Of a stretch of 12,821 bases of DNA, positions 1 through 12,821 are shown one piece after another; the stretch's first letter is position 1, and the number at the start of each line of letters is the position of its first letter. This DNA comes from an uncultured Novosphingobium sp. (GTDB taxonomy: Bacteria > Pseudomonadota > Alphaproteobacteria > Sphingomonadales > Sphingomonadaceae), in NCBI GenBank assembly GCA_937860195.1, contig CALMBN010000075.1, forward strand, positions 1 to 12,821, in the 5' to 3' direction. Below the pieces are notes generated by a model. That model saw only the letters and a list, made by a program, of their open reading frames with translations, was not told the DNA's origin and made no database searches. A program made the translations under genes and the position numbers.

Positions 1-1843
1 GACTGCGCTTTGACCCCAATTCGACGCTTACCCCGTAGAACTTCCGTTCCTTGAGCACGTAAGTCTGGCGCGAAGACAGCACCGGAAAACCCGCCACCGC
101 ATTGATCCGCAGTTGCTTGCCGGCCTGCCAGCCCAGCATCGCTCCATCGAAACGGCCCAGCACGCCGCCCGAATTGCGGGTTTGCCGTCCGACCCGCAGC
201 TGGGTGTTCAAGTCGTTGTCGGTATAGTCGAAATAGAGCGCGGAAACCGATTCCTGATTGCGGAAAACCCGCCTTTCAGCGCCGTTGTTGATGACGATCA
301 CCGACTTGCTTGTGCCGAAATCCTTGGTGTACGCCCCCGCCGCGCGGATCTGGAACTGGCGGCGATCATTGCCGCCCGAAATGGTGATGTCGCCGTTGGT
401 CAGCAGCTGGTTGAGGTTGAGCGAATTATCGACCTCGACGCCCAGCTGTGATGTCGTGTTGAACGTATTTGTGCGGTTCTGATCGCGGAAATAGAACTGC
501 GAAAAGCTGCCTCGCAAACCCCAATTCCATTTGGCAGCGCCGCCAAGACCGCTGGCTTCGCGCAGCGGTGAGCCTGGCTGGCCGGTCGGACTTGTCGATT
601 CGAGCCCGGCAAGCCGTTGGCGGACCCGATCAGCACCTTCGCCGCTTGGGTAACGCCGCAAGTACTCTTCGTATTCCGCGCGCGCATGGGCACCCTGGCC
701 CTGGCGCTCGCGGGTCAACCCAAGAAGCTCCAGCGCTCGCGGAGTGTTGAAGTTCTCTGGCTTCTGGACGGCGTTGGTCAGCAATTGAACCGCACGGTCA
801 AGATTGCCATCCTGGATCGCTTGCTCGGCTTCTGCAATAAGGCCGGCTGTTTCGGTGCTCGCTGCGTCACCGACCCCGGCACTGGCCGGTCCGGGGGTGG
901 CAGTTACGATCGCCGGCAAAACCGGCGCACCGGCTTGTGCAGGCGTGGCAGTTGCAGGTGCGGCGGGCGCGCTGACCGGTCCGGGGGTAACGGTTGCCGG
1001 TACCGGCGGCAGGCTAACTGGTCTGGGCGTTACGGTTGCAGTCGGAGCCGGTACGCTGGGAACGCTCAGCTTGCTCGCAATGCCTTCGCGGCGCTCGAGC
1101 ACCGAAACCTTGACCACCCAGGCTTCCGGGAAATCCCTGGACAGGCGCAGCCGCGCAGCGTCGGCTTCTTCCTTGGTTTTGAAGAAACCAACGCGGAGCC
1201 GGTGCCAGCGCAGCGAATCGCGTTCGAACTGATTCTCATAGACGACATCCCCGGCCACTGCTTGCCGCTGGCCCGGCGTCAGATCGCCAACTTCGCGGGG
1301 CAATGACAAGACGTTGACGACATACAGGCCATCGGGGATTGCTTGCTGCTGTCCGGTCGACGGCGTGGCCAGATCGGTTTCGAATCCCGCCGCGCATGCC
1401 ATGCTGCCGGGTTCAGCGATCCGGATGTTGAGTGTCTGAAGCTTATCGCCGGGGGCAACGGTAAATTCCATATCGCGCGTAAAGAACAACGACAGGACCG
1501 GGCCAGCCGGATTGTCACCCTCATACCCGATCGAACGCAATTCAGGGATCGATTGGGGTGTACGCAGCGATTCACTCGATCTGCCGGCGGTCTTGCCGTC
1601 CAACGGACGCAGCCTGACGTGGAGCTCGCGTCCCTTTGCCGGAAATGAGCTCAGCACCTGGAAGCGGATGTTGAAATTGACCGTTACGGTTGTGCAACTG
1701 CCGACCGTCTCAGCCTTGACGTCTGACAGGGCGCGATCTGATACGGCCTGCCCGAAGGCAGGACTTGGGAAAACCGCGCCGGCGGCTGCAACTGCTGTGA
1801 TCGCGACTATCGAACTAGCGGTCGCAAAGCGGGTAGTGCTCAA
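1..1843 (-). CDS. Exported SPOR/TPR protein with probable C-terminal beta-barrel (3' end beyond window)
   Basis: Partial; 614 codons are visible and the frame is open to the left edge. The chosen start is TTG at 1843-1841, with GGGGGA at 1856-1851 seven bases upstream, followed by a clear signal peptide (residues 1-31, ending PSPAFG). Residues about 48-145 form a beta-rich domain that may be AMIN-like. Residues about 171-250 match a SPOR domain (GLYVVNVLS opening, GFFKTKEEADAARLRL, closing AWVVKV), a fold known to bind peptidoglycan. A Pro/Val/Thr/Ala-rich linker with degenerate repeats (about 258-325) leads to a TPR-like helical region (335-414). From about 435 on, alternating aromatic and polar strands with Asn/Asp turns resemble an outer-membrane barrel. 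It is last in the visible cytochrome operon, 28 bases after the 23-heme gene. I infer an envelope-spanning or outer-membrane partner of the cytochromes. The TPR-barrel layout also recalls polysaccharide exporters such as BcsC. SPOR and signal peptide are fairly sure; the barrel is tentative. Confidence 0.8.
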   Translation of the reverse strand, partial: MSTTRFATASSIVAITAVAAAGAVFPSPAFGQAVSDRALSDVKAETVGSCTTVTVNFNIRFQVLSSFPAKGRELHVRLRPLDGKTAGRSSESLRTPQSIPELRSIGYEGDNPAGPVLSLFFTRDMEFTVAPGDKLQTLNIRIAEPGSMACAAGFETDLATPSTGQQQAIPDGLYVVNVLSLPREVGDLTPGQRQAVAGDVVYENQFERDSLRWHRLRVGFFKTKEEADAARLRLSRDFPEAWVVKVSVLERREGIASKLSVPSVPAPTATVTPRPVSLPPVPATVTPGPVSAPAAPATATPAQAGAPVLPAIVTATPGPASAGVGDAASTETAGLIAEAEQAIQDGNLDRAVQLLTNAVQKPENFNTPRALELLGLTRERQGQGAHARAEYEEYLRRYPSGEGADRVRQRLAGLESTSPTGQPGSPLREASGLGGAAKWNWGLRGSFSQFYFRDQNRTNTFNTTSQLGVEVDNSLNLNQLLTNGDITISGGNDRRQFQIRAAGAYTKDFGTSKSVIVINNGAERRVFRNQESVSALYFDYTDNDLNTQLRVGRQTRNSGGVLGRFDGAMLGWQAGKQLRINAVAGFPVLSSRQTYVLKERKFYGVSVELGSKRS

Positions 1844-1872
1844 GATATGGTCCCCCAAAGTACGGTATTCAT
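1840..1872 (-). CDS. Possible 10-codon coupling ORF between cytochrome and SPOR genes
   Basis: An ATG at 1872-1870 overlaps the stop codon of the 23-heme gene (TGATG). It opens a frame of ten codons (MNTVLWGTIS) whose stop TGA (1842-1840) overlaps the TTG start of the next gene (TTGA). Seen directly: both junctions overlap. Inferred: ribosomes ending the cytochrome could reinitiate here and be handed to the SPOR gene. The peptide itself is unlikely to have a function, and the arrangement could be chance. Confidence 0.25.
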   Translation of the reverse strand: MNTVLWGTIS

Positions 1873-3599
1873 CAGTCCCAATTGCGGGTGTTGTGACACG
1901 CGCCGCAGTCCTGCGTGGTAGTGGGATGGTCACGTGGCTTGCCTTCGGCGATCGTGCCGTTGTGACATGAGTCGCACCGCCCGGTAATCGCGCTGTGGTT
2001 CATGTTGACCGAAGCGAAGCTGGTTGTGCTGCGATGGCAGGATTCGCACACGTTCGTCGTCTGCCCGTGTCCAGGATTTTTGCCAATTGCGGTCGTGCCA
2101 TTGTGGCAGGATGAGCAATTGGTAGTGATGCCGGTGTGGCTGAAGTTGGCCGGTGTCCAGGCATTGGTGGTGTGGCAGGTGCTGCACTGTGCGGTCGTGT
2201 TGACGTGGTTCGCCGATTTGCCCTTGGCGGTGGTGCCGTTGTGGCAGCTGGAACAGGTGCCGATCACATCGAGGTGGTTGACCGTCTTGGCCGGGGCCCA
2301 GGCGGTATTGGTGTGGCAATTGGCACAGGCCGTCGTCGTATTGATGTGGGTCGGGCTCTTGCCGGTCGCCGTCGTGCCGTTGTGGCAGCTGACGCAGGTG
2401 CCGGTGGCATTGGCGTGGTTGAAGTTCGCCGGAGTCCACGCAGTCGTGCTGTGGCAGGTGCTGCACTGCGCGGTCGTGGTGATGTGGGTCGCCGACTTGC
2501 CCTTGGCCTTGGTGCCGTTGTGGCAGCTGCTGCAAGTGCCGATCACATCGTTGTGGTTGACCGTCTTGGCCGGTGCCCAGGCAGTGCTGGTGTGGCAATT
2601 GGCGCAAGCTGTCGTCGTGGTGATGTGGGTCGCCGACTTGCCCTTGGCATTCGTGCCGTTGTGGCAACTGACGCAGGTGCCCGTGGCATTGGCGTGATTG
2701 AAGTTGGCCGGAGTCCAACCAGTCGTGCTGTGGCAGGTGCTGCATTCAGCGGTCGTGGTGATGTGAGTGGCCGATTTACCCTTGGCCTTTGTGCCGTTGT
2801 GGCAGCTGCTGCAGGTGCCGATCACGTCGTTGTGATTGACCGTCTTGGCCGGAGCCCAGGCGCCAGTCGTGTGGCAATCGGCGCAGGCCGTATTGGTGTT
2901 GATGTGGGTGGCAGACTTGCCTTTTGCAGTCGTGCCATTGTGGCAGCTCACACAAGTGCCAGTGATTCCCGCGTGGTCGAATTTCGCCCCGGCCCAGCCG
3001 TTCGTCGTGTGACAAGCAGCACAATCCTGCGTTGTCGCGACGTGGGTCGAGCCCTTGCCGGTTGCCTTGGTGCCATTGTGGCAACTGGCGCAATTGGCAG
3101 TGATCCCGGTGTGATCGAATCGGGTCGATTCCCAGTTCGACGTGGTATGGCAGGCACCGCATGCCTGGGTGGTGGGCAGGTGGCTCGCTGGCTTTCCGAC
3201 CGCCTGGACGCCATTGTGGCAGCTCGCGCAGGTTCCCGTGTAGCGGCTGTGATCAAATTTGCTGACCTGCCATTGCCGAGTGGTGTGGCAGCTGTCGCAG
3301 TTGTCCTGGGTGCGCAGGTGATTTGCGGGCAGGCCACTGGCCCGAACCGAGTTGTGGCAACTGAGACAGTCCTTGGGTGTGCCTTCGAATTCGCCGCCTT
3401 TGTGGCAGCTTTCACAGCGGACAGCAGCGTGCGCACCGGTCAAGGGGAAACCGGTCCGGAAATGGTCGAATTGGCTGTTTGCGCCCTGGGCAGCGGCCGG
3501 CATCGACCACGCTGCAAGGAGCATGGCACCGAAAACTGCGAAAATCGCGGTCAGGAATTTCCTTGGCAAGCCAATCACCTGTGTTGCGACACGACCCAA
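1872..3599 (-). CDS. 23-heme c-type cytochrome with tandem heme repeats
   Basis: 575 residues. Start TTG at 3599-3597, with GAGGGG at 3609-3604 four bases upstream. A Sec signal peptide (PRKF, hydrophobic stretch, cleavage near AAA37-Q38) has no lipobox, so the protein is soluble in the periplasm or outside the cell. It has 23 CxxCH motifs between residues 62 and 569, about one heme per 22 residues. After a divergent start, the repeat is CxxCHNGTxAKGKSATH, then CxxCHTTxAWxPA, then FNH or VNH. There are exactly 23 histidines outside the motifs, placed alternately with them, so every heme can be bis-His ligated. Most of the chain is Thr/Ala/Asn/Gly-rich linker. It sits between the 24-heme cytochrome (158-base spacer) and the SPOR/TPR protein. 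Inferred role: a periplasmic or extracellular electron wire in a respiratory or extracellular electron-transfer chain. Multiheme c-type identity is certain; electron donor and acceptor are unknown. Confidence 0.95.
   Translation of the reverse strand: MGRVATQVIGLPRKFLTAIFAVFGAMLLAAWSMPAAAQGANSQFDHFRTGFPLTGAHAAVRCESCHKGGEFEGTPKDCLSCHNSVRASGLPANHLRTQDNCDSCHTTRQWQVSKFDHSRYTGTCASCHNGVQAVGKPASHLPTTQACGACHTTSNWESTRFDHTGITANCASCHNGTKATGKGSTHVATTQDCAACHTTNGWAGAKFDHAGITGTCVSCHNGTTAKGKSATHINTNTACADCHTTGAWAPAKTVNHNDVIGTCSSCHNGTKAKGKSATHITTTAECSTCHSTTGWTPANFNHANATGTCVSCHNGTNAKGKSATHITTTTACANCHTSTAWAPAKTVNHNDVIGTCSSCHNGTKAKGKSATHITTTAQCSTCHSTTAWTPANFNHANATGTCVSCHNGTTATGKSPTHINTTTACANCHTNTAWAPAKTVNHLDVIGTCSSCHNGTTAKGKSANHVNTTAQCSTCHTTNAWTPANFSHTGITTNCSSCHNGTTAIGKNPGHGQTTNVCESCHRSTTSFASVNMNHSAITGRCDSCHNGTIAEGKPRDHPTTTQDCGACHNTRNWD
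2172..2954 (-). repeat. Tandem 279-base four-heme superrepeat inside the 23-heme gene
   Basis: Nearly identical sequence recurs with a period of 279 bases. The CSSCHNGT-coding segment lies at 2233, 2512 and 2791 on the plus numbering, and the related CVSCH segment at about 2372, 2651 and 2931. Each unit encodes 93 residues with four heme sites, made of two diverged halves of 46 and 47 residues. About 2.8 units span heme 8 (2940-2954) to heme 19 (2172-2186). The high DNA identity suggests recent unit duplication or ongoing homogenisation. Confidence 0.85.
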
Positions 3600-3758
3600 T
3601 CGACCCCTCGCCGAAAAATGTGTCTCAGATTGCTATTATCTTTACGAACCTAACCAGCAAAATAAAAGAAATGGTATACAAGACCTTTCGACCTATCGCT
3701 GCAAGGAATCGGTTGGCCGACAAAACTGGTCAACTGCAAGGTTAATGTCAGTTTCGGG
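3600..3758 (-). other. Intra-operon spacer between the two cytochrome genes
   Basis: This 159-base stretch is unusually long for an operon whose other junctions overlap or nearly touch, and it is more AT-rich than its surroundings (for example the TATACCATTTCTTTTATT segment). It contains no credible gene. It could hold an internal promoter or a processing site that sets the 23-heme level separately. I see a GATAAT element but no convincing -35 partner, and no intrinsic terminator with a T-run. Confidence 0.4.
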
Positions 3759-5531
3759 TTAGGGTTTGGTCCGCCCTTTGCCGACCAGAATTTCCGCAAA
3801 ATCGTTGGTTGTATGGCAACGCGCGCAATCATCGCCGAACCCGCCGCGGTGAGGATCATGACGGCGGTGGCAGTCTACGCACTGGTTCCCGACCTTGGCC
3901 GGATCACCTGGCCGGGCGTGGCAAGCCGAACAGACCAACCCTTTGTGCTTGCCGGTCAAGGCAAATTTGGTCTGGCGATCATGATCGAACCGCCACACTT
4001 TCCAGTCGGTCGTGTTGTGACAATTCTGGCATTGGGCTGGCTTGCCCAGCGTTCCCTTGTGGGTCTTGTCCTCGTGGCAGGCCGCGCAGGTCAACCCTTT
4101 GGCAGAAAAGCTCTTGTCCGCATGACAGGACACGCAGGCCAGGGCCATATGTTTGCCCAGCAGCGGGAACTTGGTCAGATCATGGTCGAACCGGACCCCT
4201 TCTTTCCAGCTTTCAGCATTGTGGCATCGCCCGCAATCTGTGCCGAGCCGCCCGGCATGCGGATCTTCCTTGGCGTGGCACGTGCTGCATAGGCTGGAAA
4301 GCTTCACTTCCAACGGCGGCTTGGGGTGACAAGCTTCACACTTGGCGGTCGCGTGTTTTCCGGCCAGGGCAAACTTTGTCATCGTGTTGTGGTCGAACGT
4401 GACCTTCTTCCAGTCAGTCTCATTGTGGCACTTGGCGCAATCCTTGCCATTGCCGCCCTTGTGGGCATCGTCAGCCGCATGGCAGGCAAAACAGGTGTTT
4501 GGCGGCTTGGCGATCTTTGGTGGCTGCTTGTGACATCCCTCGCACTTGGTCGTGCGGTGCGCGCCTTTCAGCGGAAACTGGGTCGTGTCATGGTTGAAGC
4601 TGGTTTGCTTCCAGTCGCGGGGATTGTGGCAACTGCCGCAATCGGTCCCGTTCGCTCCCTTGTGGCTGTCATCCTTCGCATGGCAGGCAAAGCAGGTCCG
4701 GGATGGGTGCTTGTTGGCATTTCCGGCCCCGTGACACCCGGCGCAGGTCGCGGCGGCATGCCCACCAACCAGCGGAAAACCTGTTGTCGAATGGTCGAAC
4801 GTCGCGGTCCCCCACGATGCGGTGCTGTGGCACGAAGCGCAATTGGTGCCGCGGCTTCCCTTGTGAGCATCATCCTTGGCGTGGCAGCCGACGCAAGTTG
4901 CAGGAAGATTCTTCCAACGCTGTCCGGCATGGCAGCTCATGCAGGCCTTTTGGGCATGGGCTCCGGTCAGCGGAAATCCGGTCGAAGCATGGTTGAACCC
5001 CTGGATCTGTTTCCAGGCAGTGGTGTTATGGCAACTCTGGCATGCGCGCCCAAGCTGGCCTTTGTGTGGATCGAACGGGCCATGGCAGCCGGCACAATCG
5101 CGCGGCCGACCGCGATAGTCGTTACCCCGATGGCAGCTGCTGCATTTCGCCCGTTTGTGCGCACCGGTCAGGGCGAAGTCGGTGTAGGCGTGATTGAAGC
5201 TGGGTTGGTGGAGGACGATCAGCGTGTTGCTGCGCCCCTTGTGATCACTGTGACACGATTTGCAGGCCCCATTGCGGGCGGGCGCGAACTTGCCATGGAA
5301 TTTGGTGCCTGTCCGGACATCCGTGGCAACCCCGCCATGACAGGTCAGGCAGCGGCCGTTTTGCGCCTCTTTCCGGAACGACGAATGGCAAGAATCGCAC
5401 TTCGCCTCAAGCTTGGCATGGGCGCTGGACAACGGTCCGGGCGTGACAAGACGCTCCATGATAGTCTGGGCCACGGCGGGCGTGGCCAGACACAGGCAAA
5501 GCAACCAGAATAGAGCAAGCGCACGACGCAT
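3759..5531 (-). CDS. 24-heme c-type cytochrome, triheme-module type
   Basis: 590 residues. The ATG at 5531-5529 overlaps the upstream gene's stop (TGATG), and it begins a proper signal peptide (MRRALALFWLLCLCL, cleavage near AVA21-Q22); longer upstream starts would lie inside the preceding gene. It has 24 CxxCH motifs from residue 45 to 573. The N-terminal part (GPLSSAHAKLEAKC, two close CxxCH, then CKSCHSDHKG) is a conserved opening I recall from cytochrome c3-type multiheme proteins. The rest repeats a three-heme module: CxxCHAKDDAHKG, then CxxCHxxxxWK, then FDH, FPLxGxH and CxxCH. There are 27 histidines outside the motifs, enough for bis-His ligation of all hemes. No lipobox is seen. Inferred role: periplasmic carrier taking electrons from the membrane cytochrome encoded just upstream and passing them to the 23-heme protein or an outer-membrane partner. 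Confidence 0.95.
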   Translation of the reverse strand: MRRALALFWLLCLCLATPAVAQTIMERLVTPGPLSSAHAKLEAKCDSCHSSFRKEAQNGRCLTCHGGVATDVRTGTKFHGKFAPARNGACKSCHSDHKGRSNTLIVLHQPSFNHAYTDFALTGAHKRAKCSSCHRGNDYRGRPRDCAGCHGPFDPHKGQLGRACQSCHNTTAWKQIQGFNHASTGFPLTGAHAQKACMSCHAGQRWKNLPATCVGCHAKDDAHKGSRGTNCASCHSTASWGTATFDHSTTGFPLVGGHAAATCAGCHGAGNANKHPSRTCFACHAKDDSHKGANGTDCGSCHNPRDWKQTSFNHDTTQFPLKGAHRTTKCEGCHKQPPKIAKPPNTCFACHAADDAHKGGNGKDCAKCHNETDWKKVTFDHNTMTKFALAGKHATAKCEACHPKPPLEVKLSSLCSTCHAKEDPHAGRLGTDCGRCHNAESWKEGVRFDHDLTKFPLLGKHMALACVSCHADKSFSAKGLTCAACHEDKTHKGTLGKPAQCQNCHNTTDWKVWRFDHDRQTKFALTGKHKGLVCSACHARPGDPAKVGNQCVDCHRRHDPHRGGFGDDCARCHTTNDFAEILVGKGRTKP

Positions 5532-6391
5532 CAGTACATGTGCACCGCTACGATATGAAGCACGGCTGCCGCGACCAGAATGAAAAACAGCGGCAAATGA
5601 AACAGATGCCACAGCCGCAGCAGCCGGTCATAAAAGGCGAATTCAGCAGATCGCCGAACAGCCTTGAAAAATTCGTGAACCAGGTCCCGCAAGTTTATGG
5701 TCCGGCGATCTGCCCCATGCGGCAATGCGGCGATCAGGCGGCGCTCGGCCAGGCGGGTTTCCACGCCCAATCCAATGACGGCCGCCGCGCTGCTCCAGAA
5801 TGCGCCGCCGGCCCGGATCGCGCGATCTTCATACGGCTGAATTCGCGCCAGAATTGCCTCTCGCGGCAACCCGCGCGCTTCAAGCTGCGCCATCAAATCG
5901 TCCATTTCCTGCTTCAACGCACGCAGTTCCAGCTTGCGGCCGGAATAGCCACGATGGACCCGCGAATAGAAGAACCTGCCGACCAGCCCGCTGCTCGCCA
6001 CTACAATCATTGCCCCCAACGCCAACGCACTATTCAAAGCACCCCAGGTGAAACGCGAATGATATAGAATCGCCAGCGGACCAAGCAAGCCCAATAGCAT
6101 GTGAAATCGGAACCAGAAGCCGATCGAGCCGGGCGCGCTTTTGCCCTTCTTGACTCGCTTGCGCAACGGGTAACCCAGCAGGATGATCATCATCGTCCCG
6201 CCGCCAATGCCCAGCCAATAGCCAAGCCCGTCTTCCGGATCGAAGGGGAGGCCCGACCGATTGCCCCATCCCCAGCCAACCGCGCACACCACCGCGAAGA
6301 CGATCGCCAACGAAACAAATCGTTCGATTGCGCCTGCGGTTAACTTTGGCCGTTCACTGGATGATTGGAATTTCTCTGCTCTCGAAGCCAT
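5531..6391 (-). CDS. Cytochrome b561-like inner-membrane protein
   Basis: 286 residues from the ATG at 6391. A TTG at 6436 would add 15 residues, but neither start has a good ribosome site, and the recognisable protein begins near residue 19. Membrane helices lie at about 23-41, 57-75, 94-112, 118-142 and 262-283. His97 and His111 in the third helix and His265 and His279 in the last are each 14 apart, the spacing expected for two stacked bis-His b hemes; His262 and His284 are extra candidates. A charged, helical, coiled-coil-like stretch (about 149-195) lies in the long loop between helices 4 and 5. It is first in the minus-strand operon and its stop overlaps the start of the 24-heme gene, so the two are probably translationally coupled. 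Inferred role: membrane electron entry point, perhaps quinol oxidation, feeding the periplasmic cytochromes. It could instead belong to a ferric-reductase-like family. Confidence 0.75.
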   Translation of the reverse strand: MASRAEKFQSSSERPKLTAGAIERFVSLAIVFAVVCAVGWGWGNRSGLPFDPEDGLGYWLGIGGGTMMIILLGYPLRKRVKKGKSAPGSIGFWFRFHMLLGLLGPLAILYHSRFTWGALNSALALGAMIVVASSGLVGRFFYSRVHRGYSGRKLELRALKQEMDDLMAQLEARGLPREAILARIQPYEDRAIRAGGAFWSSAAAVIGLGVETRLAERRLIAALPHGADRRTINLRDLVHEFFKAVRRSAEFAFYDRLLRLWHLFHLPLFFILVAAAVLHIVAVHMY

Positions 6392-6620
6392 CTGGCAATT
6401 TAACCTGCTGTTGTCGACCCTGCGCTTATCAGGCAAATATGCTTAGCGTTTGGTTTCTGTACCGGGAAAATTATCCGACTCGGCTCGTCTCTCGAGGCAG
6501 TCGCCCGGTCGAGCCTGGCGCAAAATGCAAGGTTCGTGTCAGAAATGGGATGGGCGTTGGTCAGAAAGCCATTGAAAAGCAGATGAGGCCATCGGCCTTT
6601 TGTAACGAACGGGAAATCGA
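6392..6620. promoter_or_regulatory. Divergent intergenic control region
   Basis: This 229-base spacer separates the minus-strand cytochrome operon from the plus-strand ccmI-like operon, so it should hold both promoters and any regulator site. Seen: an inverted repeat GGCTCG (6482-6487) / CGAGCC (6510-6515) around a CTCGAG palindrome; a GATAAT element on the minus strand near 6475; and a short hairpin AGGCC-ATC-GGCCT followed by T's at 6586-6601, just before the ccmI-like gene. No -35/-10 pair is clear enough to call. Confidence 0.5.
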
Positions 6621-7706
6621 ATGCTGCAGTACATTTTTACCGGTCTGGCGGGGATCGCCTTGGGAATCGTGGCAATGCGCGTCTGGCAGAGCCGCGAAGC
6701 TGGCTTGGCTGCCAAAGCCGATGAGGCAACGGCGCCAACGTTCGCATTGCCTTGGGCCAAGGTCAGTCAGGGCCGAATGCTGCTGGCTGGGGCCGGCGTC
6801 CTGTTGGTAGCCGCAATCGGAATCTTCGTGTTCCGTGGTCAGGAAGCCGCCGAACCCATAGTGGCATCCACCAATGCGCCGACCGGATCCCAGCAGGATC
6901 TGGCCGATGTCGATACAATGATCGGAAAGCTGTCAGCCCGGCTCGAGAAGGAACCGAACGATGGCGAAGGCTTCCGCATGCTGGGCTGGTCCTATCTGAT
7001 GACCGGGCGGCCGCAACAGGCCATCGCTCCGTTCAAGCGGGCAATGGAATTGTTGCCAAAACAGGCCTCGGTTCAATCCGGCTATGCCGAAGCGCTGGTC
7101 GGGGTGGCAGGCGGTAAGGTCACGCCTGAGGCCAAGGCTGGATTCGACAAGGCCTTGCAACTTGATCCCAAAGAGCCGCGCGCCCGTTATTTTTCAGGGC
7201 TGTGGCTGGCGCAGAATGGAAAAGGTGGCGAAGCGCTTGATCGCTGGATCGACCTTGCCAACGCAAGCCCTGCCGACGCACCCTGGCAACCTGAAGTTCA
7301 AGCCAAGATCCGTGAAGTAGCAACCCGCGAAGGCGTTGATGTTTCTGGCCGGCTGAGAGTTAAGGCCATTCCCGCCGCTGGCACCAGTGCAGTCGCTGCT
7401 GGCAATGTCGGAGCGGGCACCGTTCCTGCGCCTGACCCCGCCAAGGCCGCTGCGGTTGCGCAATTGCCGCCGGATCAACAGCAGGCTTCGATCGGCGGCA
7501 TGGTAGATGGCCTGGCCGCGCGGCTCAAGGCAAACCCCAGGGATGCCAAGGGCTGGGCGATGCTGGTCAGGTCGCGAATGGTCCTGAAACAGGACAAGCA
7601 GGCCGCCGCCGATCTCGCAAGCGCCCGCAAGGCGCTGGCGGGTGATGCCGCCGGTCTGGCAGACGTTAACGCTGCGGCCAAGGACGCAGGAGTTCCAGGC
7701 GCCTGA
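6621..7706 (+). CDS. ccmI: CcmI/CycH-like cytochrome c maturation TPR protein
   Basis: 361 residues; the ATG has GGGAA eight bases upstream. Two membrane helices (about 3-21 and 53-71) flank a short loop, as in CcmI. A periplasmic TPR domain follows (about 98-215), then an Ala/Pro/Gly-rich linker (250-285) and a second TPR-like copy (293-340); compare SARLEKEPNDGEGFRMLGWS with AARLKANPRDAKGWAMLVRS. In the family, this protein holds unfolded apocytochrome c by its C-terminus and presents it to the CcmF/CcmH heme ligation complex. Here no ccmF, ccmG or ccmH accompanies it, so this copy may be dedicated to the 47 heme sites encoded next door. Its stop is one base from the next start, so the two are probably one operon. 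The family call is firm. The exact orthology is less sure, since this may be an accessory paralogue. Confidence 0.8.
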   Translation: MLQYIFTGLAGIALGIVAMRVWQSREAGLAAKADEATAPTFALPWAKVSQGRMLLAGAGVLLVAAIGIFVFRGQEAAEPIVASTNAPTGSQQDLADVDTMIGKLSARLEKEPNDGEGFRMLGWSYLMTGRPQQAIAPFKRAMELLPKQASVQSGYAEALVGVAGGKVTPEAKAGFDKALQLDPKEPRARYFSGLWLAQNGKGGEALDRWIDLANASPADAPWQPEVQAKIREVATREGVDVSGRLRVKAIPAAGTSAVAAGNVGAGTVPAPDPAKAAAVAQLPPDQQQASIGGMVDGLAARLKANPRDAKGWAMLVRSRMVLKQDKQAAADLASARKALAGDAAGLADVNAAAKDAGVPGA

Positions 7707-7707
7707 G

Positions 7708-9018
7708 ATGAATTTCGATCCGCTACTTCTGATCTATGTGCTGCCCTTGCTTGCCATCTGGGCCAACAGTGTCGTGCGGTCTCGCCGCAATTCGTCAAAG
7801 GCCCTCGCAGTTCTTGATGACAATCGCCAGGCTGGCCTGATCGAACCTGCTTCGTTGCATCCCGTCGTCGATCCGGCCCTTTGCCTTGGTTGCGGCGCAT
7901 GTGTCTACGCGTGCCCCGAAAAGAAGATTCTGGGCATCATCGACGGCAAGGCCGCCTTGATCGAACCGACGATGTGTGTCGGCCATGGCGCTTGTGCGAC
8001 GGCCTGCCCGACCGACGCGATTACACTCGTGTTCGGAACCGAGACCCGCGGTGTCGATATTCCGCTGCTTTCGCCGGATTTCGAAACGAATGTGCCGGGT
8101 ATGTTCATCGCCGGCGAACTTGGCGGGATGGGTCTGATCAAGAACGCGATCGAGCAGGGGCGGCAGGCAATCGTGGCAATCGCCAACAAGGCGCGTCAAT
8201 TGCCTGGCGGTGACGGTGTACTAGACGTCCTGATAGTCGGTTGCGGGCCGGCCGGGATTGCGGCCAGCCTGGGCGCGATCGAGCGCAAGCTTTCGTTCGT
8301 GACTGTCGATCAGTCCACCCTGGGCGGAACAGTCGCGCATTTTCCGCGCGGCAAGCTGGTGATGACCGCGCCGGCGACTTTGCCGATGATTGGCGAAGTC
8401 CGGTTTAGAGAGGTCAGCAAGGAAGAATTGCTGGGGTTCTGGGAGGACGTCCTGGGCCGAACGGGTCTGCAGCCGCGGTTCGAAGAGCAGGTCGCGTCGA
8501 TTTCCAAAGTCGACAACCACTTCGAAGTCGTGACAAGCAAGGCGACGTTTCGCGCAAAAACGGTCTTGCTGGCCATCGGTCGACGCGGAACGCCTCGGCC
8601 CCTTGGGGTTCCGGGCGAAGAACTTGGCAAGGTGGTCTACCGCCTGATCGACCCCGAACAATATGCCGGAAAACGGGTGCTCGTGGTCGGCGGCGGCGAT
8701 AGCGCGCTGGAAGCCGCCTGCCGGATTGCCGAGCAGCCAGGAACCCAGGTCGCGATTTCCTATCGCGGCAAGAGCTATTCCCGGGCCAGAGCAAAGAACC
8801 GCGATCGTTTGCAGGAATTGGCCCAGGAAGGCCGTATCCGTGAACTGCTTGACAGTACCGTCGAGCGGATTGATCCTCAGGCGGTAGCGCTGCAGTGGAA
8901 GTCTGAACCGATGACGCTGGAAAACGACGATGTGATCGTCTGCGCCGGGGGATTGCTGCCGACCGCATTCCTGAATTCGATAGGAATCAGAATGGAGACA
9001 AAATTCGGAACGGTTTGA
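7708..9018 (+). CDS. Membrane-anchored 4Fe-4S / FAD NAD(P)H oxidoreductase, circularly permuted
   Basis: 436 residues. The ATG at 7708 lies one base after the previous stop; longer starts lie inside ccmI. An N-terminal helix (3-20) anchors it, followed by basic residues, with the rest probably cytoplasmic. A two-cluster ferredoxin domain follows: C59, C62, C65, C69P, then C90, H93, C96, C100P, with His at the usual second Cys. A FAD domain has VGCGPAG at 177-183, and a dinucleotide domain has VVGGGDSALEAA at 326-337. The thioredoxin-reductase active-site CxxC is absent. The segment TNVPGMFIAGELGG with NAIEQG (128-151) looks like the FAD-closing GxFAAGD motif of this fold, but it precedes the first glycine motif, and the chain ends where that motif would normally come. 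Inferred role: moves electrons between NAD(P)H and the membrane cytochrome b or quinone pool. Domains are sure; partner and direction are inferred. Confidence 0.88.
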   Translation: MNFDPLLLIYVLPLLAIWANSVVRSRRNSSKALAVLDDNRQAGLIEPASLHPVVDPALCLGCGACVYACPEKKILGIIDGKAALIEPTMCVGHGACATACPTDAITLVFGTETRGVDIPLLSPDFETNVPGMFIAGELGGMGLIKNAIEQGRQAIVAIANKARQLPGGDGVLDVLIVGCGPAGIAASLGAIERKLSFVTVDQSTLGGTVAHFPRGKLVMTAPATLPMIGEVRFREVSKEELLGFWEDVLGRTGLQPRFEEQVASISKVDNHFEVVTSKATFRAKTVLLAIGRRGTPRPLGVPGEELGKVVYRLIDPEQYAGKRVLVVGGGDSALEAACRIAEQPGTQVAISYRGKSYSRARAKNRDRLQELAQEGRIRELLDSTVERIDPQAVALQWKSEPMTLENDDVIVCAGGLLPTAFLNSIGIRMETKFGTV

Positions 9019-9153: not shown

Positions 9154-9810
9154 ATGCGCCTGCTATTGATCGAAGATGATATCCGGTTGGCTAACCGGCT
9201 GACCGCGCGGCTTGCCAGCGAAGGCATGATCGTTGCGCATGCAACAAGTGCCGAACAGGCGCTCGAGCTGGACGACTTCGAATCCCTGGCCGCGCTGATC
9301 GTCGATATCGGACTGCCTGGGGCGGACGGCGTGACGTTCATCCGCAAAGTCCGTTCGCTTGGCTTCACAATTCCGATCCTGGTTCTTTCGGCGCGCGGCA
9401 ACTGGGAGGAAAAGGTTGAAGGGTTGAATGCAGGCGCTGACGACTACGTTGTCAAACCAGTCCGGGCAGAAGAGCTGATTGCCCGGTTGCAGGCGCTGAT
9501 GCGGCGGGCGTCGGGCCAGGCGGGCGAACGGCTGTCTGCAAGCGGGATCGAGCTGGATCTGCAGCAGAAGTCCGCCTGGGTCGAAGGCAAACCGGTCGAC
9601 CTGACCCAGAACGAGTTCCGGCTGCTCCAGTTATTCCTGCTCCGGCCAGCCAGCATTCTGGCCCAATCCGAAATTCTCGACCACCTCTATTCAAAGACAA
9701 AGGGCCGCGAGGCAAACACGATCGAAGTCAACATCGCCCGATTAAGGCGCAAGATCGGCAAGGATGCCATTCGGACGGTCCGCGGTCTTGGCTATCGTTT
9801 GCGGCGATGA
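9154..9810 (+). CDS. OmpR/PhoB-family response regulator
   Basis: 218 residues, the usual length for the family. The receiver domain (1-115) has the acidic pair D8-D9, the phosphoacceptor D51 in IVDIGLPGADG, the switch residue S79 and K101 in VVKPVRAEE. The C-terminal winged-helix domain (about 125-218) has the typical LTQNEFRLL and NTIEVNIARLRRKIG motifs. There is no clear ribosome site before this ATG; the family's usual MRLLLIEDD opening fixes the start. It overlaps the kinase gene downstream by four bases. Placed just after the oxidoreductase, it is the best candidate regulator of both flanking electron-transfer operons. The signal it reports is unknown. Confidence 0.93.
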   Translation: MRLLLIEDDIRLANRLTARLASEGMIVAHATSAEQALELDDFESLAALIVDIGLPGADGVTFIRKVRSLGFTIPILVLSARGNWEEKVEGLNAGADDYVVKPVRAEELIARLQALMRRASGQAGERLSASGIELDLQQKSAWVEGKPVDLTQNEFRLLQLFLLRPASILAQSEILDHLYSKTKGREANTIEVNIARLRRKIGKDAIRTVRGLGYRLRR

Positions 9811-11156
9811 TCCGTCGCACTGACAGCCTCAGGTTTCGCCTGCTCATCGGGACGGCGGTGTGGATCGGTTTGGGCATCCTTGTGGGCGGGCTGCTGGTAT
9901 CCTCACTGTTCCGCTGGAATCTGATGCAGGGCTATCATGAAGAGCTGGCAATCCACATCGAGGAGTTGGCGGCCTTGACCGCGATTGACCCGACAGGTCA
10001 GCCATACCTGCTTCGGCGCCTGTCGGATCCGCGCTATTTGCCGCCGGAATCCGGTTTCTATTGGCAGATTGACCGGGCGGGGAAGCAAACGGTGGCCTCC
10101 CCTTCGCTTGGCAGCAACCGCTTTGATCCAGGGTTCGCGAACGGACCGGCACTGCGCACCGCCTGGACCGAGGGCCCGCACGGCCGGACGCTCGAATACG
10201 GCAAACAGATCGCGTTGGACGACGGGCCCCCTTTGCAGGTGGTAATCGCCACGGACAAACGCCTGGTCGATGCGACAATGGCCGAATTCAACCGTTCGCT
10301 CGCACTTTCGCTGTTCAGCTTTGCGCTGCTCATGATTGCCGCCGGGATGCTGCAAATCCGCTTTGGCTTGCGACCGCTCGACCGGCTGGCGAGAGCAATC
10401 GGAGACGTGCGCTCTGGCCGCTCAGAGCGAATGCATGGAACATTTCCGGCCGAAATCACACCGCTGGTCGCCGATCTGAATGGTCTGATCGAATCCAGTT
10501 CCGCCTCGGTCGCGCGGAGCCGACTGATCGCCGGCAATCTCGCCCACGGCCTGCGCGCACCGCTGGCAATCCTGATCGACGAAGCCGATTGTCTGCGCAA
10601 ATCAGGACATACCGATGCTGCGGACACGATCCTGGGCGAATCAATCAGAATGCAGCGGCAAATCGATTTTCACCTCGCCCGGGCGCGCAGTGCAGCCGCG
10701 CAGCCGCTGCCTGGCAAGGTCGCATCGGTTCCGGCGGCGCTGCAGCGGCTTGGCGATGCCTTCACCCGGCTGCATCAACAGCGCCAGATTGAATACCTGA
10801 TCGCGCCAGGCGAGTCCCTGTGCGTCCCGTGCGACCAGATCGACTTGACCGAAATCCTGTCAAACCTGCTCGACAATGCCGGCAAATGGGCCGCCAGCCG
10901 GTGTTCGGTCCGTTGGTACCGGGAAAAGTCGATGGTTGTGATCGAGATCGACGACGATGGCCCGGGACTGCCCGACGAGGAACGCGAGGCGGTGTTCAAG
11001 GTCGGCACCCGGCTTGACGATCTGATGCCGGGCACCGGGCTGGGGCTGGCGATTTCCCGCGATCTGGCCCGCATCTATGGCGGCGACGTACACTTGGCCA
11101 ACGCGCCCAGCGGAGGCCTGCGCGCCACGGTGCGGCTGCCAGCAGTTGAGGGGTAG
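9807..11156 (+). CDS. Sensor histidine kinase, PhoQ/QseC-like
   Basis: 449 residues, starting in an ATGA overlap with the response regulator, so the pair is translationally coupled. A first membrane helix (11-35), a periplasmic sensor of about 125 residues (36-162) and a second helix (163-183) lead into a HAMP-like linker (183-235). The H-box is NLAHGLRAPLA with the phosphorylated His247; Gly replaces the common Glu after it, as in PhoQ-like kinases. The ATP-binding domain has the N-box NLLDNAGKW (353-361), DDDGPGLPD (382-390) and GTGLGLAIS (409-417). The sensor domain has no CxxCH or other visible heme or metal motif, and I cannot name its ligand. Context suggests control of the cytochrome cluster. 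Confidence 0.92.
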   Translation: MIRRTDSLRFRLLIGTAVWIGLGILVGGLLVSSLFRWNLMQGYHEELAIHIEELAALTAIDPTGQPYLLRRLSDPRYLPPESGFYWQIDRAGKQTVASPSLGSNRFDPGFANGPALRTAWTEGPHGRTLEYGKQIALDDGPPLQVVIATDKRLVDATMAEFNRSLALSLFSFALLMIAAGMLQIRFGLRPLDRLARAIGDVRSGRSERMHGTFPAEITPLVADLNGLIESSSASVARSRLIAGNLAHGLRAPLAILIDEADCLRKSGHTDAADTILGESIRMQRQIDFHLARARSAAAQPLPGKVASVPAALQRLGDAFTRLHQQRQIEYLIAPGESLCVPCDQIDLTEILSNLLDNAGKWAASRCSVRWYREKSMVVIEIDDDGPGLPDEEREAVFKVGTRLDDLMPGTGLGLAISRDLARIYGGDVHLANAPSGGLRATVRLPAVEG

Positions 11157-11432: not shown

Positions 11433-11765
11433 TCAACCGGCGACCTCCGCATTGAGATAGGCCTTCACCCGCTGCATGCCCGCAAGACCATCGGCTTGCA
11501 TGACGTCGAGCGCGCTTTTCCCGTCGAATGCAGCATTCTTCTGACCAACCCAGCGTGCAGCCCGATCGCCATTGGGAAAGATCTGGCGCAATGCGGCGTG
11601 AATACCAAGCAGCACTGCTGCTCTCTCAGTCCGCTCACCGCTTGCGCCATCAAGGAGAGAGTCGGGCGGGACGTCCGGAACACCCCAGTGCGCGAGCAGA
11701 GTAACGGCAGCTCGCGCCATCGCCTGCGTCTCGTCATCATGGTATTGAACGATTGCGGAGGCCAT
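11433..11765 (-). CDS. MbcA/ParS-type (DUF2384) antitoxin-like protein
   Basis: 110 residues from the ATG at 11765; a TTG at 11828 would add 21 residues of poor character. The C-terminal half matches the MbcA/ParS/Xre toxin-binding domain: LLGIHAALRQIFPN, then RAARWVGQKNAAFDGKSALD, then MQRVKAYLNAE. The N-terminal part is short and helical, possibly a reduced helix-turn-helix. In this family the protein neutralises a RES-domain toxin encoded directly downstream. No RES gene follows here; the next 276 bases are noncoding and end at the kinase gene. It points away from hipBA. It may be an orphan antitoxin, a remnant, or a partner for a toxin elsewhere. The domain call is good; the function is open. 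Confidence 0.8.
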   Translation of the reverse strand: MASAIVQYHDDETQAMARAAVTLLAHWGVPDVPPDSLLDGASGERTERAAVLLGIHAALRQIFPNGDRAARWVGQKNAAFDGKSALDVMQADGLAGMQRVKAYLNAEVAG

Positions 11766-11830
11766 GGACGGATTTTCCGGAATTCGACGTCCTGTCTTAG
11801 CCGAAGATGCGCCGAGACGCCACCACAAAA

Positions 11831-11948
11831 TCTTCCCGATCGGTAAGATGGACGATCAAACGGCACTCGGCAGTCATCTTTCTTCCCGTTCGGTAAGAAA
11901 ATGACTTGATCAGTCTATTCGATTGTGCTTTCTTCCCGCTCGGTAAGA
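11831..11948. promoter_or_regulatory. Three-site operator array upstream of hipBA
   Basis: TCTTCCCGNTCGGTAAGA occurs three times, at 11831-11848, 11881-11898 and 11931-11948, differing only at the N (A, T, C). Starts are exactly 50 bases apart and the intervening sequence is not conserved. Each copy is a palindrome with a single mismatched pair, plus the central N. The last copy ends five bases before the hipB ATG. The pattern fits binding of HipB dimers with HipA for autorepression. The site nearest the DUF2384 gene starts 66 bases upstream of it, so that gene could be co-regulated. Confidence 0.8.
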
Positions 11949-11953
11949 ATGCC

Positions 11954-12169
11954 ATGATTGAAGACGCAACCCAATTCGGCACAGCCGTCGCCTCCGCCCG
12001 AAAGGCTCTCGGCCTCACCCAGCGAGAGCTGGCGCTTGCCATCAACAGCGGTGAGCGCTTCATCGTCGATCTCGAAGCTGGCAAGCCCACCGCGCAATTG
12101 GGCAAGGCACTCGCCGCCGCCCGTGCCGTCGGCCTGCGCCTGACCGCAACAGGCACTGCACAGGGCTGA
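11954..12169 (+). CDS. hipB: HipB-like antitoxin and repressor (XRE family)
   Basis: 71 residues. The ATG at 11954 was chosen because the family begins just before the first helix, and a start at 11906 would read through the third operator. The helix-turn-helix covers about 8-60, with GLTQRELALAINSGERFIVDLEAG as the core (quoted in part: LTQRELALAI, FIVDLEAGKP). It ends with GLRLTA, a typical HipB beta strand. It binds DNA as a dimer and holds the HipA kinase inactive. The operator array is directly upstream, and the hipA start follows two bases after its stop. Confidence 0.9.
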   Translation: MIEDATQFGTAVASARKALGLTQRELALAINSGERFIVDLEAGKPTAQLGKALAAARAVGLRLTATGTAQG

Positions 12170-12171
12170 CC

Positions 12172-12821
12172 ATGGAACTGCCCATCCACTTCGGGAACCG
12201 GCAGGTCGCCACAATCAGCGCCGACGCCCAGGCAACAACGCTCAGCTACACCGACTCCTGGCTGTCCGCCCCGGACCGCTTCCCGGTCTCGCTCGCCATG
12301 TCCTTGCAAGCTGAACCTTTCGGCAGCGAACGGGTCCTGCCTTGGCTGATGAACCTGCTACCCGAGGGCGAACCCTTGCGCGCGATGACCCGCGCCGTCG
12401 GCGTCGCCCCCGAAGACGCGCTCGGCCTGATCGCTGAGACCGGCAACGATCTCGCTGGCGCACTCAGCATCGCCCCGCAGCAACCGCGCGGCGAGCCTGG
12501 CTATCGTGCAATCCCGGATACCGACACACTCGAGCGGATCATCGCAGAATTACCCGCACGCCCCTTCCTGATCGGCGAAGAAGGCGTCTCGATGAGCCTC
12601 GCGGGCGCACATGACAAACTGCCCGTCGCCATGATCGATGGCCAGATCGCTGTCCCCATCAATGGCGCGCCGTCGACCCACATCCTCAAGCCCGATAATC
12701 CGCGCCTGCCCGGCAGTGTCCAAAACGAGGCGCTTTGCATGGTCCTTGCCCGACGGATCGGCCTCACTGTAGCGCCAGTCACGACCGGCGTTGCTGGAGG
12801 ACGCAGCTATCTGCTCGTCGA
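12172..12821 (+). CDS. hipA: HipA-like serine/threonine kinase toxin (3' end beyond window)
   Basis: Partial; 216 complete codons are visible and the frame is open to the right edge. The ATG lies two bases after hipB, with AGGG about six bases upstream. The N-terminal subdomain (1-100) has the FPVSLAMSL and FLPWLMNLLPEGE-like motif (VLPWLMNLLPEGE, 55-67). The kinase part shows the glycine-rich loop SLAGAHDKLPV (142-152) and the ATP-binding lysine in STHILKP (K173). The common Gln in the AGAQDK motif is His here. The catalytic Asp region lies beyond the window, so activity cannot be judged. In the family, HipA phosphorylates glutamyl-tRNA synthetase or related targets and induces persistence. 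Confidence 0.92.
   Translation, partial: MELPIHFGNRQVATISADAQATTLSYTDSWLSAPDRFPVSLAMSLQAEPFGSERVLPWLMNLLPEGEPLRAMTRAVGVAPEDALGLIAETGNDLAGALSIAPQQPRGEPGYRAIPDTDTLERIIAELPARPFLIGEEGVSMSLAGAHDKLPVAMIDGQIAVPINGAPSTHILKPDNPRLPGSVQNEALCMVLARRIGLTVAPVTTGVAGGRSYLLV

Follow-up and report, generated by a model that had tools for sequence, protein, structure and literature searches.

Gene content of the locus

We analysed the whole of contig CALMBN010000075.1 (12,821 bp, hereafter the window), which comes from an uncultured Novosphingobium sp. whose genome assembly is 71% complete and lies in 359 contigs. Our analysis showed two divergent gene sets, which almost certainly make up a member of PCC3, a putative porin-cytochrome conduit, together with a gene for an Fe-S flavoprotein. 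The minus strand encodes an inner-membrane protein (IMP), a 24-motif cytochrome adjoining it (CytA), a 23-motif cytochrome (CytB) and, adjoining the latter, an outer-membrane barrel. On the plus strand follow ccmI and the genes of the flavoprotein and of a two-component pair (response regulator, then histidine kinase). Loci and genomes used for comparison are referred to by L and G numbers.

2..1933, minus strand: outer-membrane barrel ("porin") with a soluble N-terminal part, SPOR and TPR, cut by the contig end (Pfam; strands in the relative L035)
1872..3599, minus strand: CytB, repeat cytochrome with 23 CXXCH, extracellular PCC3 type (motif count, composition)
3759..5531, minus strand: CytA, cytochrome with 24 CXXCH, periplasmic PCC3 type (motif count, module spacing)
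5531..6391, minus strand: IMP, inner-membrane protein with two predicted b hemes (PCC3/PCC4 signature)
6392..6620, no strand: divergent promoter region holding three blocks of conserved sequence (alignment of six loci, blocks chosen by eye)
6621..7706, plus strand: CcmI/NrfG-like cytochrome c maturation factor (PF23914, TPR_CcmH_CycH, 1.9e-20)
7708..9018, plus strand: Fe-S flavoprotein with an N-terminal transmembrane helix (Pyr_redox_3 1.7e-38 and Fer4 domains)
9154..9810, plus strand: OmpR-type response regulator (Pfam)
9807..11156, plus strand: sensor histidine kinase, the nearest NCBIfam model being PhoQ, under its cut-off (Pfam, NCBIfam)

The two cytochromes contain 47 CXXCH motifs in total, which are motif counts and not measured hemes. 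The parts named in the sequence-only reading, these 47 motifs, the two divergent gene sets, the CcmI-like protein, the Fe-S flavoprotein and the two-component pair, were all present.

Relation to PCC3 and other conduits

PCC3 was described by He et al. in 2017 as a putative conduit of Sideroxydans, Leptothrix and Erythrobacter (PMC5566968). We assign the window to it because its IMP signature, its 24 and 23 motifs at about 25 amino acids each, its gene order and its barrel match that description (PMC5566968). In common with the PCC3 described there, the window has a barrel porin (recognised through the full-length relative L035, as the window copy is truncated), a repetitive, Thr/Ser/Ala/Gly-rich cytochrome of extracellular type (CytB), a periplasmic-type cytochrome in the range of about 21–27 hemes (CytA, 24 CXXCH), and an IMP of about 300 amino acids (286 when counted from the conserved start) in which W-X3-H-X13-H occurs twice together with SGXXG. 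The number of amino acids per motif is low as well, 25.0 in CytB and 24.6 in CytA (590 amino acids from the likely start over 24 motifs), inside the PCC3 range of 22–39. The sequence-only reading, a putative trans-envelope conduit near PCC3 with its own flavoprotein and maturation factor, is supported in this respect. Its view that such a route would be unexpected in a sphingomonad was not borne out, as an Erythrobacter stands in the 2017 list and, of 396 genomes sampled from the order with the source included, 16 have the IMP. The locus is of a kind described before, and its presence in a sphingomonad is no surprise. Novosphingobium sp. CF614 and Sandarakinorhabdus oryzae carry the cluster too.

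Unlike the four-gene PCC3 described in PMC5566968, the clusters compared here carry an Fe-S flavoprotein (31 of 31), a CcmI-like protein (19 of 31) and NrfE/CcmF (seven of 31). The flavoprotein is not named as a part of PCC3 in the literature found on it, although the supplementary tables or Figure 6 of PMC5566968 may show it.

The general plan of a periplasmic multiheme cytochrome, an outer-membrane barrel and a surface cytochrome is shared with MtrCAB, MtoAB and PioAB, but the window cytochromes have far more motifs. Both stayed under the cut-off of the DmsE/MtrA model TIGR03508 (CytB 132.8 of 192.2 bits, CytA 15.9), so neither qualifies as an MtrA-family decaheme, and a Pfam search with nine proteins of the window showed no CymA/NapC-type protein. 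Membership in PCC4, defined by a porin and three periplasmic cytochromes of 4, 5 and 10 hemes with no extracellular one, was ruled out by the two cytochromes of 24 and 23 motifs.

Inner-membrane protein and barrel

The IMP signature (W-X3-H-X13-H, SGXXG, W-X3-H-X13-H) was present in the window, in 12 of 12 named loci and in all 120 matches listed of 728 homologues. No Pfam match to the IMP was obtained at 0.01, the ferric reductase domain included, and a sequence search against solved structures gave no convincing relative (best E 0.093, unrelated); CytA likewise had no relative among solved structures at 0.01. An AF2 model of the IMP (mean pLDDT 76.8) has helices fitting five transmembrane helices, the number expected for the family, plus an insert, while hydropathy alone flags four membrane stretches. 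The helical insert, located before the last helix, is predicted to be cytoplasmic by the positive-inside rule, and on the model it could dock the flavoprotein. The IMP stop codon and the likely CytA start overlap by one base.

The protein at the left edge matched SPOR (8.9e-7) and, weakly, TPR in Pfam. Its relative in L035, 844 amino acids long and 58% identical to the piece in the window, is predicted to form 22 long strands that follow a soluble part, and the structural neighbours of the model, made for this full-length copy, were barrels (VIA-align). The barrel supposed for this protein in the sequence-only reading is in this way supported through the relative.

The two cytochromes

CytA consists of an N-terminal cap with three hemes (spacings 16 and 29) followed by three-heme modules (16/17, 18 and 33), an architecture seen in eight clusters; in the window, seven modules of about 67 amino acids follow the cap. 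Over 30 clusters the motif number was 24 in 13, 21 in 11, 15 in five and 20 in one, whose first motif is degenerate. Periplasmic PCC3 cytochromes of Gallionellaceae have 21, 24 and 27 motifs (PMC10734462).

CytB is 47% Thr, Ser, Ala and Gly, and is built of a 23-amino-acid one-heme repeat arranged in two-heme pairs; a 279-bp tandem repeat in the window DNA corresponds to a four-heme super-repeat. The motif count was odd in 18 of 18 complete alphaproteobacterial copies, four truncated ones being left out, and ranged from 5 to 57; outside the class, we counted 34 motifs in L076 and 11 and 13 in L077. The largest was found in L031 (Novosphingobium sp. HK-STAS-PROT-76, positions 12822-16895), which in the tree of the IMP is the sister of the window and whose CytB of 1357 amino acids has 57 motifs, with an exact repeat of 590 nt inside it. 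For the Leptothrix group, up to 57 hemes have been reported in a PCC3 cytochrome (PMC13386937), and He et al. had remarked on the large and variable heme counts (PMC5566968). The count of 23 in the window rests on one metagenome assembly; the longest exact repeat in its cytB is 35 nt, so that a simple assembly collapse is not evident. Six draft clusters break inside cytB (L032, L033, L036, L039, G120 and G417), and motif counts from drafts may accordingly be too low. From these patterns we infer that the inner wire is fixed and the outer one expandable, as would suit a CytA that spans the periplasm and a CytB that is free.

Linkage and co-occurrence of the flavoprotein

In total, 31 clusters with IMP and CytA were compared, namely the window, 12 named loci, 13 further full clusters and five reduced ones, repeat fetches of one contig being counted once. 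All 31 have the flavoprotein. Two of them, G120 and G417, are split over two contigs, with the flavoprotein beside the barrel on the second and the break in the repetitive cytB. For these two, L074 and L075, which end in cytB and on their own have no flavoprotein, were putatively joined with L100 and L101, which begin or end in cytB. The supposition that the neighbours are conserved together was confirmed: flavoprotein, IMP and CytA stand in the order of the window in all 12 named loci, which had been picked by an IMP search alone. Of the 26 full clusters, 22 have a barrel and four lie on contigs that end in cytB; the 8 of 12 named loci that reach past cytB all have it, and the contigs of the remaining 4 end there. 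The ccmI gene is absent from three of the 12.

The phylum sample comprised 396 genomes besides the source. Full-length IMP (E < 1e-50) was found in G223, G120, G417, G311 and G415, which represent four families, and the flavoprotein (E < 1e-180) in the same five. At 0.001 there were 27 genomes with an IMP match; the 22 weaker ones, mostly partial or short-type, were all without the flavoprotein at 1e-60. A flavoprotein candidate in G085 (E 5e-70) was rejected, since its 780-aa frame in another context points to a different protein. Among 395 genomes of the order besides the source, 13 had both IMP and flavoprotein, two had IMP alone and none had the flavoprotein alone. The two IMP-only genomes are 77 and 88% complete, with no cytochrome gene in the stretches beside their IMPs, and one IMP frame is broken. 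In L112 (151-1185) the IMP gene has an inner stop and no cytochrome was found beside it on the 6-kb contig; from its sequence, PCC3 seems to be decaying in this lineage. Fisher's test gave p = 1.3e-11 for the phylum and 1.4e-22 for the order, values that are uncorrected for kinship and use cut-offs set after the matches had been seen. The class sample was uninformative on linkage, as neither protein was found at the limits used in 148 other genomes, and the IMP was not matched in 72,556 plasmid records.

The distance matrices of IMP, flavoprotein and CytA correlated with r of 0.83–0.91 (0 of 2000 permutations; 30 clusters, L082 being left out as close to L081). The two trees built, one of them of the IMP, have their main groups in common, though not every branch. 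Five reduced clusters of one genus (L084, L085, L086, L113 and L114) combine the flavoprotein with a short IMP and a CytA of 15 motifs; their surroundings, for L086 those on a contig of 7 kb, showed no barrel, CytB, CcmI or NrfE. These clusters look derived because they fall inside the Novosphingobium/Erythrobacter group in both trees. Judging from gene content, IMP, CytA and flavoprotein are the core that survives reduction. The flavoprotein is, on this comparative evidence, very probably a true partner of PCC3.

Between flavoprotein and IMP, two families of the order have an ankyrin/Sel1-repeat protein (L081 7655-9499 and L083 10495-12360, on which Pfam was run). Frames of the same size occur in L082 and L107-L110, and a similar-looking frame, identified by eye, adjoins the L100 flavoprotein.

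We also looked at eight clusters of non-PCC3 type with a shorter IMP. Three of them (L078, L080 and L087) encode, directly upstream of the IMP, a different type of flavoprotein that has FAD, NAD and 2Fe-2S domains; no flavoprotein was seen in the few genes tested of the other five. These three have cytochromes of 6–7 motifs beside the FNR-type flavoprotein, and a PCC3-type barrel was not matched in the stretch examined. They might be a parallel NAD(P)H-to-multiheme arrangement.

Features of the flavoprotein

The flavoprotein starts with a transmembrane helix and basic residues, followed by two ferredoxin motifs and FAD and NAD(P) folds, and its soluble domain is predicted to be cytoplasmic by the positive-inside rule. 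The helix falls under the hydropathy cut-off in several relatives, e.g. L041, L073 and L109. The FAD/NAD(P) Rossmann folds are of YpdA/TrxR type, with a GGGDS motif in the window copy, and the closest solved relatives were YpdA (chain 7.2e-39) and thioredoxin and ferredoxin-NADP reductases. A YpdA equivalog was rejected, as the scores are under the NCBIfam cut-offs.

The two cluster motifs are CXXCXXCX3CP and CXXHXXCX3CP. The second was present in all of the best 120 of 8000 scored flavoprotein homologues and was found by pattern in 28 of the 31 cluster copies; L076 (G311), L077 (G415) and L101 (G417), which lie outside the class, carry it too when read by eye. Their first motif is CXXSXXC, with Ser for the second Cys, so that neither of their motifs has four cysteines. 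In the P450-linked ferredoxins examined, motifs of the CXXHXXC(X)nCP kind bind a [3Fe-4S] cluster; these ferredoxins relay electrons from an NAD(P)H reductase to the P450 heme, and the His-type ferredoxin of M. tuberculosis has a potential of -31 mV (PMC6237146). The flavoprotein resembles them in this motif and in the proposed relay from an NAD(P)H reductase to heme (PMC6237146). It differs in that the His-type cluster, whose type is predicted, is one of two and sits in a protein that also includes the reductase and a membrane anchor. By analogy, this cluster is probably [3Fe-4S]-like and of higher potential.

Cytochrome maturation genes

The CcmI profile matched in 19 of the 31 clusters, and CcmF/NrfE was matched in seven: behind the barrel in L031, L034, L035, L037 and L038, between ccmI and IMP in L073, and in L101, where it lies among other ccm-looking genes, named by eye, between barrel and flavoprotein. 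In 14 PCC3-type genomes searched, four (G000, G559, G223 and G311) had a second CcmF match. This extra copy is cluster-linked in G559 and G223, stands beside the other barrel fragment in G000 and is unlinked in G311. The cluster-linked NrfE of G417 is the only CcmF match of its genome. A general dedicated PCC3 heme lyase was rejected, with a linked second copy only in G559 and G223 and NrfE in just seven of 31 clusters. From these matches, a dedicated heme lyase is predicted in some PCC3 members and is not general.

Regulatory and neighbouring genes

A response regulator lies beside the flavoprotein in the window and in nine other clusters (L031-L035, L037, L039, L077 and L105). It was not matched there in the other 21 of 31 clusters, although L084 and G311 have one further off. 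L105 alone has a clear orthologue of the window histidine kinase, at 50% identity; the kinases next to a regulator in L037 and L077 share about 28% identity with it. The three blocks of the divergent promoter region (6392-6620), conserved over six loci, are possible sites for the linked response regulator.

The right part of the window holds two further features.

11433..11828, minus strand: protein with an Xre/MbcA/ParS-type antitoxin domain (Pfam 6.5e-11)
11906..12819, plus strand: HipB/HipA-looking pair, cut by the contig end, named by eye

Contig C94 of the same bin, which begins within a PCC3 barrel gene, was rejected as the left continuation of the window, because the barrel overlap is only 73% identical in DNA over 535 bp. 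Positions 1-4049 of this contig (L115) hold a second PCC3 barrel fragment, then an NrfE-like gene and a thioredoxin-like (CcmG/DsbE-looking) frame. By its sequence, this barrel fragment is either another PCC3 copy or part of another organism in a mixed bin.

Proposed electron route and its alternatives

Two-heme-b membrane relays paired with a cytoplasmic NAD(P)H flavoprotein are found in MsrQ-Fre and in NOX and ferric reductases. We propose a similar pairing of IMP and flavoprotein, and consider it fairly likely, from the sequence evidence, that a split NAD(P)H reductase forms the inner-membrane end of this PCC3 conduit. The HX13H likeness of the IMP to NOX/ferric reductases was pointed out by He et al. 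(PMC5566968). Unlike MsrQ-Fre and NOX, the system combines an IMP with no ferric reductase domain match at 0.01, a YpdA/TrxR-type flavoprotein with two Fe-S motifs, and a multiheme wire as its outlet.

In the proposed route, the membrane-anchored flavoprotein would transfer electrons from NAD(P)H to its FAD and then, through a [4Fe-4S] and the His-type cluster, to the IMP, with which it would be in contact. Through the two b hemes of this protein they would cross the inner membrane and reach the 24-heme CytA, which would bridge the periplasm to the barrel, and CytB would bring them out to an acceptor. CcmI, with NrfE/CcmF in some relatives, may help heme loading. NAD(P)H is the likely substrate, an origin that is supported because flavoprotein and IMP co-occur; of the two sources that the sequence-only reading had left side by side, NAD(P)H or quinol, it is the first that gained support. 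The kinship of the flavoprotein to YpdA, thioredoxin and ferredoxin-NADP reductases also favours NAD(P)H, as do the P450-linked His-type ferredoxins and the other NAD(P)H flavoprotein upstream of the shorter IMP. Its description of the route as complete went too far, as the contig ends inside the barrel gene and some relatives add a CcmF/NrfE heme lyase. Outward flow is suggested because the reverse, NAD(P)+ reduction from Fe(II) or Mn(II) by such a path, would have to overcome both the potential difference and the membrane charge, and we give outward flow even weight.

The model proposed for PCC3 by He et al. (PMC5566968) is quinone-linked uptake, in which an outside donor such as Fe(II), Mn(II) or a mineral would feed CytB, CytA, the IMP and finally the quinone pool, the flavoprotein being a side branch. 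An Erythrobacter sp. in the PCC3 list oxidises Mn(II) (PMC5566968), Erythrobacter sp. SD-21 carries the cluster (L038), and in CL21 one PCC3 IMP gene was raised in iron-oxidising cells (PMC12442390); these points speak for uptake, and the last of them against the outward NAD(P)H route. On the other side, both PCC3 clusters of S. lithotrophicus ES-1 were lowered on Fe(II) (PMC8788666) and its PCC3 extracellular cytochrome Slit_1448 has a value of 0 in a proteome table (PMC12016527), both of which favour the NAD(P)H route. The flavoprotein moreover tracks the IMP and would be needless for a quinone route. With the energetic barrier to NAD(P)+ reduction named above, we regard uptake as unlikely.

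The flavoprotein might instead be a maturation enzyme, which like thioredoxin reductase would keep apocytochrome cysteines or heme reduced without feeding the wire. Its thioredoxin-reductase/YpdA kinship suits this role, as do the ccmI-flavoprotein pairs that are adjacent in the window, nine of 12 named loci, L073, L101 and L105. However, the 12 of 31 clusters without a ccmI match (L040-L042, G120, L077, L081, L082 and the five reduced forms with 15 motifs) still have the flavoprotein together with IMP and CytA, and no CXXC pair outside the Fe-S motifs is among its invariant columns; this explanation seems quite improbable. The heme array could also be a capacitor or an envelope redox sensor read by the linked two-component system, with no net respiration. 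The regulator beside the flavoprotein in ten clusters and the wide variation in CytB length would agree with this, but the regulator is unmatched there in most clusters and a clear kinase orthologue occurs in one other locus, and we consider such a function very improbable.

Returning to the split NAD(P)H reductase, a wider picture can be offered tentatively, with less assurance than its single parts. PCC3 as a whole would be a trans-envelope NAD(P)H-driven wire and not a quinone-linked iron-oxidation conduit, made of a split NOX/MsrQ-like reductase, a CytA ruler lengthened in three-heme steps (15, 21 and 24) and an expandable CytB (5 to 57). Aerobes such as sphingomonads would use it to discharge cytoplasmic reducing power outside, and the IMP families would have recruited different flavoproteins independently.

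PCC3 has been a candidate conduit without tested function since 2017, and a closely tracking fifth component gives it a biochemical handle. The flavoprotein in this place predicts both a cytoplasmic substrate and the direction of flow. If this is true, PCC3 would be unfit as a marker of iron oxidation, and a minority of aerobic alphaproteobacteria would perform NAD(P)H-driven extracellular electron transfer.

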